Assembly: GCF_023074835.1 (NCBI RefSeq)
Contig: NZ_JALLGW010000001.1
Location: forward strand, 2,232,001 to 2,296,000
From: Halomarina salina
Lineage (GTDB): Archaea > Halobacteriota > Halobacteria > Halobacteriales > Haloarculaceae
Length of the DNA stretch: 64,000 bases
Direction: 5' to 3'
The position numbers were made by a program, and so were the translations under genes. Shown here in pieces: positions 42,146 to 59,496 of this stretch. The notes beneath the pieces were generated by a model. It worked only from the letters and a program-made list of their open reading frames with translations. It was not told the DNA's origin and searched no databases. Position 1 is the first letter of the stretch. Each line of letters starts with the position of its first letter.

Positions 42146-42206
42146 GCTCGGTCGTCCCACGGAGCGAAGCGACGTGGGCACAGCGCTGAGCGAAGTGACG
42201 CTCGGT
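42146..42206. repeat. 54-bp segment between two GCTCGGT copies, upstream of tRNA-Glu
   Basis: GCTCGGT occurs at 42146-42152 and again at 42200-42206, where it begins the tRNA. Between them are two hairpins with GAGCGAAGCGA-type loops: CCCACG...CGTGGG (42156-42178) and AGCG...CGCT. This looks like an insertion that duplicated seven bases. Confidence 0.6.
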
Positions 42207-42274
42207 TGGTGTAGTCCGGCCAATCATTTCGGCCTTTCGAGCCGATGACACGGGTTCAAATCCCGTACCGAGCA
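42200..42274 (+). tRNA. tRNA-Glu (anticodon UUC)
   Basis: 75 nt. Acceptor GCTCGGT (42200-42206) pairs with ACCGAGC (42267-42273), discriminator A. Anticodon arm TCGGC / CTTTCGA / GCCGA, TTC at 42236-42238. The T arm CGGGTTCAAATCCCG is intact. No CCA encoded. The final 22 bases are repeated exactly at 42368-42389. Confidence 0.93.
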
Positions 42275-42316
42275 TTCTGCGAGGAGTATCCCGACGAGCA
42301 GATGCGCGACGAGTGG

Positions 42317-42389
42317 TTTGAACCCTGCGAGACGCAGCACGAACGGAGTGAGTGACCGTCTCGCTTCGGTTCAAATCCCGTACCGAGCA
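42317..42389 (+). repeat. stem-loop ending in an exact copy of the tRNA-Glu 3' 22 bases
   Basis: 42368-42389 repeats 42253-42274 exactly (GGTTCAAATCCCG...CGAGCA). Its first eight bases GGTTCAAA pair with TTTGAACC at 42317-42324, and inside that GCGAGACG (42327-42334) pairs with CGTCTCGC (42357-42364), giving a 16-bp interrupted stem with a 22-base loop containing GAACGGAGTGAGTGA. The copy lacks the D and anticodon arms and cannot be a tRNA. Confidence 0.8.
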
Positions 42390-59090: not shown

Positions 59091-59194
59091 GTATTAACTA
59101 CCGCCCGCTGAATTGATGATGATTGATACTCGACTGCCGTCTCCCCCCGAAACCAGCGCGTTTAACAGGGACAGGGTCCTCCGCTCGACTGCGT

Positions 59195-59278
59195 GCGAGG
59201 GTAGCCAAGTCTGGAAACGGCGGCGGATTCAAGCTCCGCTCCTGTAGAGGTCCGTGGGTTCAAATCCTACCCCTCGCA
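59195..59278 (+). tRNA. tRNA-Leu (anticodon CAA)
   Basis: 84 nt, class II. Acceptor GCGAGGG (59195-59201) pairs with CCCTCGC (59271-59277), discriminator A. Anticodon arm GCGGA / TTCAAGC / TCCGC, CAA at 59230-59232 reading UUG. Long variable arm TCCTGTAGAGGT. Box A GTTTAAC at 59159-59165, about 33 bases before. The last part is repeated downstream. Confidence 0.95.
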
Positions 59279-59317
59279 TGAGTGTGCGTCCGACGGGACG
59301 CACTCGAATGCACACAC

Positions 59318-59385
59318 GGTAGATTTGAAGCAGGGAGGTCGCGCGAAGCGCGTCCGACCGTGGTTCAAATCCTACCCCTCGCATG
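59318..59385 (+). repeat. stem-loop ending in an exact copy of the tRNA-Leu(CAA) tail
   Basis: 59362-59385 repeats 59257-59280 exactly (24 bases, GGTTCAAATCC to CGCATG). Its left part TTCAAATC-C-TACC pairs with GGTAGATTTGAA at 59318-59329, and inside that GGTCG/CGACC and CGCG-AAG-CGCG form a longer hairpin. The copy lacks the rest of a tRNA. The design matches that at tRNA-Glu (42317). Confidence 0.8.
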
Positions 59386-59496
59386 GCGTACCCCACCGGG
59401 TACGACACATGCGGAAGACCGCAGGGCGGTCTTCCCTCGCAAACTCACTCTCGATGCACCACAACGATAGTAGCACCGCGGCCGTTCTTCAGTCAC

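Follow-up and report, generated by a model that had tools for sequence, protein, structure and literature searches.

In the window, that is the whole stretch of 64,000 nucleotides (nt) of Halomarina salina contig NZ_JALLGW010000001.1 that was analysed, the gene for tRNA-Leu(CAA) is directly followed by a unit of 105 base pairs (bp) made of two hairpins, here termed H1 and H2, and of a copy of the 3' part, or tail, of the same tRNA. A direct repeat is exact over 24 bases (59257-59280 = 59362-59385, an offset of 105 bp), and the copy provides the right arm of H2, where GGTAGATTTGAA (59318-59329) pairs with TTCAAATC-C-TACC (59364-59376) and encloses the core GCAGGGAGGTCGCGCGAAGCGCGTCCGACCGTGG. 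A preliminary description, made from the letters of the window, had noticed this tail copy and its stem-loop, and both repeat and pairing are borne out; the repeated unit exceeds the span then given, as it begins at the tRNA 3' end and adds the upstream hairpin H1 (~59280-59310). It had also claimed a second tRNA gene of like design, with offsets of 115 and 105 bases, and this is what we find at tRNA-Glu(UUC), where the tail-copy offset is 115 bp. ARAGORN calls four tRNA genes in the window, and the remaining two, tRNA-Leu(GAG) and tRNA-Thr(UGU), are without an own-tail copy in the source genome, as had been said. The features are the following.

42200..42274, + strand: tRNA-Glu(UUC) gene
42275..42389, + strand: second unit, behind tRNA-Glu(UUC), with H1 (weak), left arm 42310-42322, core 42323-42369 and tail copy 42369-42389
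59194..59279, + strand: tRNA-Leu(CAA) gene, whose tail, nt 53-73 (59258-59278), is the template of the downstream copy
59280..59384, + strand: inserted unit of 105 bp (H1, H2 and tail copy); the orthologous site in three congeners is without it
59284..59303, + strand: H1 hairpin, stem GTGCGTCC/GGACGCAC
59318..59329, + strand: H2 left arm GGTAGATTTGAA, which repeats the beginning of the tail in inverted orientation
59330..59363, + strand: H2 core, GCAGGGAG...GAA triloop...CGACCGTGG, conserved in the family
59363..59384, + strand: copy of the tRNA-Leu(CAA) tail, from nt 53 to the 3' end
59409..59441, + strand: older hairpin GCGGAAGACCGC..GCGGTCTTCCCTCGCA, ending in the acceptor-strand sequence CCCTCGCA

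Tail copies among tRNA genes and genomes

Compared by BLAST with its own genome, the 67-base feature matches the 3' flanks of the tRNA genes for Val(GAC), Arg(CCG), Lys(UUU), Met(CAU) and Arg(UCG). Own-tail copies lie just downstream of 25 of the 43 tRNA genes of the source genome, and of 17/43 and 22/42 in two congeners. It had been argued from two genes that coincidence was unlikely, and at genome scale it is ruled out: 19/42, 10/42 and 17/42 tRNA genes of the three Halomarina genomes have an exact own-tail match 14 nt long or longer, against 0.3-0.9% of mismatched tRNA/flank pairs, and the own-pair mean lies above all 10,000 permutations of tRNAs and flanks. No own-tail copies were seen upstream of the tRNA genes of these three genomes, and none of the 297 protein-gene ends tested had a tail copy downstream, which rules out a general gene-tail effect. 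In 20-kilobase (kb) stretches downstream of some 20 tRNA loci, the copies are confined to about 350 bp of the tRNA. The exception to this near placement is Leu(UAG), where an old unit lies 1.3 kb off, past the remnant of an element; a tail match 8.6 kb downstream of Lys(CUU) was discarded, being read as a tRNA-Trp with an intron.

The proposal of an element class that uses tRNA tails holds well beyond this genome. A covariance model of H2 (R1), a search of the kind suggested in the preliminary description, matches 57 of 59 Halobacteria genomes at E 1e-4; at E 1e-6 the figures are 23/28 for Halobacteria and 0 of ~119 for other genomes of the phylum. All of the 30 best loci, though picked regardless of tRNAs, lie behind a tRNA gene and on the same strand. 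The hairpin units are class-wide and class-restricted. A common loop core, whose existence had been raised as a question, is present as NCAGGGAG...CGACCGWGG, with GA-rich tips bearing GNA loops.

Some flanks depart from the standard arrangement. Behind tRNA-Leu(UAA) of the source genome (L045) the copy is closer to the tRNA-Thr(CGU) tail than to its own tRNA, possibly a cross-tRNA move. At L081, L082, L108 (tRNA-Leu(CAA)) and L196 (tRNA-Leu(GAG)) the partial tRNA copies are longer, starting at the anticodon arm, and have hairpins inserted in the variable or T-arm region. A motif CCACTTTTTCCGAGGGGCTG..CTCGCAAAAACTTGGGGAAAAAG recurs near tRNA 3' flanks in several genera (L098, L186, L234, L245, L247).

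The copied block and its hairpins

The anatomy was parsed in 78 units. The order from the tRNA 3' end is H1, inverted left arm, H2 core and tail copy, and units measure ~100-130 bp. The copied block comprises 21 nt with sharp borders, from the start of the T-loop to the mature 3' end (tRNA nt 53-73). At nt 53 tRNA and copy are 94% identical, and at nt 54-73 they are 93-100% identical, save nt 57 (85%, an A/G wobble), as compared with ~30% upstream and 63, 58, 46, then ~33% downstream, a profile in which only the block borders are informative because the unit set was picked by within-block similarity. CCA is absent after the tail copies, and on this reading of the sequences copying from mature tRNA is ruled out.

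The architecture of H2 consists of an outer stem GATTYGAA/TTCRAATC of 8-10 bp, an internal loop with NCA facing GTGG, and an inner stem that contains G.A pairs in tandem. Over 16 pairs in 38 units it covaries, with 73 double-change cells against 24 when shuffled, and 88% of the cells are paired, against 21-46% after sliding. The left arm tracks the host tRNA: the base facing nt 57 forms a pair in 81% of cases, against 44% with permuted partners, and the outer five positions pair in 44% against 34% (the maximum of 2000 permutations being 42%). At Leu(CAA), the + strand taken as DNA folds at -31.5 kcal/mol (z = -5.6), a stability equalled by none of 200 dinucleotide shuffles; it folds better than the - strand, the DNA fold of which has a z of -3.7.

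Stable H1 and H2 tips carry tandem G.A pairs in 88 of 99 cases. The classic stable RNA loops are GNRA and UNCG; among these 99 tips such RNA-type loops are rare (2 and 0), and what is found in excess is GNA (28 observed, 0.8 expected), GNYA (18, 0.14) and GNAB (9, 0.56). GNNA and GNAB are presented as stable DNA tetraloop motifs (Nakano et al. 2002, as cited in PMC2984261), and d(GCGAAGC) as an extraordinarily stable DNA mini-hairpin (as cited in PMC10527192). Loops of the DNA type, together with the better folding of the + strand, favour without proving it the view that single-stranded DNA (ssDNA) of the tRNA-sense strand would be the folding form. GA-rich hairpin clusters with GNA loops are also seen directly after protein genes, without tRNA tails (L062:16957-17270, L068:13262-13470).

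Gain and layering of units

In three congeners the Leu(CAA) site is empty, and the tRNA there runs straight into the flank that follows the copy in the source genome. Exact borders of this sort, where the sequence after the last copy equals that after the tRNA, are also seen at Arg(CCG), Ser(GGA), Glu(UUC), Ser(CGA) and Pro(UGG); several 'empty' flanks carry older or decayed units. In orthologous arrays at Val(UAC), Arg(CCG), Tyr(GUA), Arg(UCG) and Leu(UAA), distal units are common and proximal ones private, the order in the Lys(UUU) array being ambiguous. At Leu(UAG), a 3.4-kb element with a PF00589 integrase abuts the tRNA with a 52-nt block in a congener, and in the source genome the tRNA is followed by a unit, by a decayed remnant of that element, in which there is a DUF5518 gene, and lastly by an older unit. 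The stretch of 1.28 kb that holds this remnant of the integrase element is the sole gene-bearing one among the arrays, and the succession indicates that the proximal unit was inserted between tRNA and integrase element, after the arrival of the element. Comparison of genomes shows units entering directly after the tRNA, flanked by the direct duplication of nt 53-73, the newest standing next to the tRNA.

In other genera, perfect tandem arrays of 4x111 bp and 3x122 bp, bounded by repeats of 21 nt, lie directly behind the tRNA, and patterns such as A-B-A-C and B-C-B'-C' are found; tandem amplification there is recent. H1 is identical in Lys(UUU) and Lys(CUU), the cores of which are not related; in Val(GAC) and Arg(CCU) it is the core that is nearly identical, and here H1 is unrelated and the arms differ. 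By the same comparison, arrays are seen to have grown also by local tandem duplication, with tips swapped between units and between tRNA loci. The hairpin with CCCTCGCA at its end, which in tRNA-Leu(CAA) is the acceptor 3' strand, is kept behind this tRNA order-wide (window 59409-59441, loci L080-L108); it may be a domesticated old unit.

A putative recombinase, its rivals and known systems

The best explanation, to which we would give about two chances in five, is that a putative recombinase inserts gene-free cassettes as ssDNA hairpins at the T-arm of tRNA genes. A tyrosine-recombinase-like enzyme, or another cutter of ssDNA hairpins, would act on the tRNA-sense strand folded as H1 and H2. 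Crossover would take place at the T-loop boundary (nt 53/54) with the tail as identity block, so that the tRNA would be left intact after each insertion. The process would work like an integron cassette array in which the tRNA gene replaces attI, without cassette genes or a neighbouring integrase. A block running from the T-stem/T-loop border to the tRNA 3' end would be the expected trace of a recombinase with the 7-nt T-loop as its overlap; anticodon loops serve as recombinase overlap (PMC8371274). Site-specific recombination would explain why the tRNA is restored, why borders are exact and why there is polarity, and staggered insertion with a 21-nt target duplication would better explain cores that hop while tails match the host. 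The wider proposition, that Halobacteria possess a dedicated integron-like system inserting gene-free hairpin cassettes of ssDNA at the T-arm of the majority of tRNA genes, and that ordered growing arrays record the history of insertion, is a more doubtful one.

Several observations weigh against a recombinase. None of the nine PF00589 genes of the source genome is inside the unit arrays, and where an integrase element is intact at a shared site, which is the case once, its block is another one, of 52 nt. The histories of H1 and H2 often differ. Near-identical cores at different tRNA genes with different tails are unexpected under simple tail-to-tail cassette exchange, which is insufficient as the only process since cores hop without tails. 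Finally, GA hairpins of like vocabulary exist in intergenic clusters without tail copies. Of the PF00589 genes, the one closest to a tRNA lies at tRNA-Arg(GCG), where the source genome has no unit. A homing endonuclease was considered as the engine and rejected: a PDDEXK_5 gene, related to PDB 2ost, is present behind tRNA-Asp in certain genomes, but the source genome does not have it, so that it cannot drive the units there. This gene, possibly that of a tRNA-targeting homing endonuclease, stands behind tRNA-Asp(GUC) in some Halobacteria (L232, L152; also G001 C1:680541-680897), and a tandem duplication of tRNA-Asp, unit and following DNA is seen in two genomes (L232, L243).

An account without a dedicated recombinase has a lesser though sizeable share of the likelihood: the hairpins themselves would provoke replication slippage, template switching and break repair, resulting in tail duplication and tip swaps. 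Mosaic tips with conserved arms, perfect tandem arrays between 21-nt repeats and left arms covarying with their own tail all fit template switching, and GA hairpins are found elsewhere too. Yet the duplication is always that of nt 53-73, in dozens of different tRNAs, and at tRNA genes only, protein genes being negative; new units enter adjoining the tRNA with exact borders, and neither the uniform register nor the common core would be expected from slippage alone. It is rather unlikely that the units are functional RNA, namely a pre-tRNA trailer with H1, H2 and a tail mimic, used for example in 3' processing, termination or a quality check of the tRNA, their turnover being fast evolution under structural constraint. 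Covariation of the sense-strand structure, the constant position downstream of tRNA genes and the order-wide hairpin behind tRNA-Leu(CAA) would agree with such a role, but half of the tRNA genes have no unit, presence varies between congeners at the same gene, and the loops are of the DNA-stable, not the RNA-stable, type. Rfam yielded no match save the tRNA itself and one weak chance match, and T-rich stretches right after many tRNA 3' ends, before H1, would be compatible with termination upstream of the hairpins. As for scars of attachment sites (attR) left over after deletion of integrative elements, tRNA 3' ends are indeed classic integrase targets (PMC8371274) and a real integrase element is present at tRNA-Leu(UAG) in a congener, but this origin is highly improbable in view of the uniform ~100-130 bp size and conserved H2 core, of tail copies found near the tRNA only and none at tens of kb (scan up to 19 kb downstream), of an identity block of 21 nt against 52 nt in the real element, and of the Leu(UAG) unit lodged between tRNA and element after the latter had arrived. 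A viral origin was rejected: IMG/VR, scanned for the exact patterns of two core types, gave nothing, and phages and plasmids gave tRNA matches only.

The putative recombinase invites comparison with known systems. As in integrons (attI/attC), the array stands at a fixed anchor with the newest unit adjoining it, a polarity visible in the proximal differences and in the layering at Leu(UAG). Each unit ends in a hairpin site, the outer arm of which repeats the crossover sequence and which folds best in one strand; H2 covariation and DNA-type loops point to a recombination site that is likewise a single-strand hairpin with an imperfect inner stem. Unlike integrons, the units are anchored on the tRNA T-loop with no IntI-type gene adjacent, they have no open reading frames within their ~100-130 bp where a cassette gene would be expected, their crossover box is GTTCRAATC rather than GTTRRRY, they have the extra hairpin H1, and their tips are exchanged independently. 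Elements integrated in tRNA genes by tyrosine integrases (SNJ2, pNOB8, HF2-type and others) have the same target, the 3' part of the gene, and also restore the tRNA by an identity block that ends near its 3' end, as nt 53-73 do here. No integrase is seen between the blocks of the units, however, nor is there room for a gene; the units measure ~105 bp instead of kilobases, the block is nt 53-73 instead of the 52 nt of Leu(UAG), and the units have hairpins and occupy two dozen tRNA genes simultaneously. The IS605-derived palindrome-associated elements (PATEs) of Haloquadratum are haloarchaeal, non-coding and provided with palindromes near their ends, and insert without target duplication (PMC3119063), whereas every hairpin unit has a tail duplication and sits only at tRNA genes; a feature of PATEs and other elements derived from IS200-IS605 is an HUH transposase acting in trans on terminal palindromes. 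Bacterial REP and REPIN sequences are also short multicopy extragenic palindromes, but the units are tied to tRNA tails, with arms specific to the host tRNA, and have no identified RAYT-like partner, no search aimed at one having been made. Casposons, which use a Cas1-type integrase and make a short target duplication at tRNA 3' ends, are a lead only, the hairpin units being gene-free. No description of hairpin/tail units was found in the open-access literature (subscription papers lay outside the scope), where a gene-free, fast-changing, tRNA-anchored element of such kind does not appear to have been reported. Of the defining features of integrons, of tRNA-integrating elements and of PATEs that were looked for, the units lack at least one in each case, HUH partners and casposases not having been searched.

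For annotation, it must be kept in mind that tail copies can pass for attachment sites of islands or proviruses. If our reading is true, a class of archaea would maintain roughly half of its tRNA genes for the landing of tiny elements, which fold as DNA and move although they have no genes of their own. Such elements would constitute a new type of repeat, mobile or recombinogenic, bearing on the role of tRNA genes as integration hot spots, and their natural ordered arrays would be usable for lineage tracing. An enzyme that reads ssDNA hairpins beside tRNA genes would then become a testable question in genetically tractable haloarchaea.
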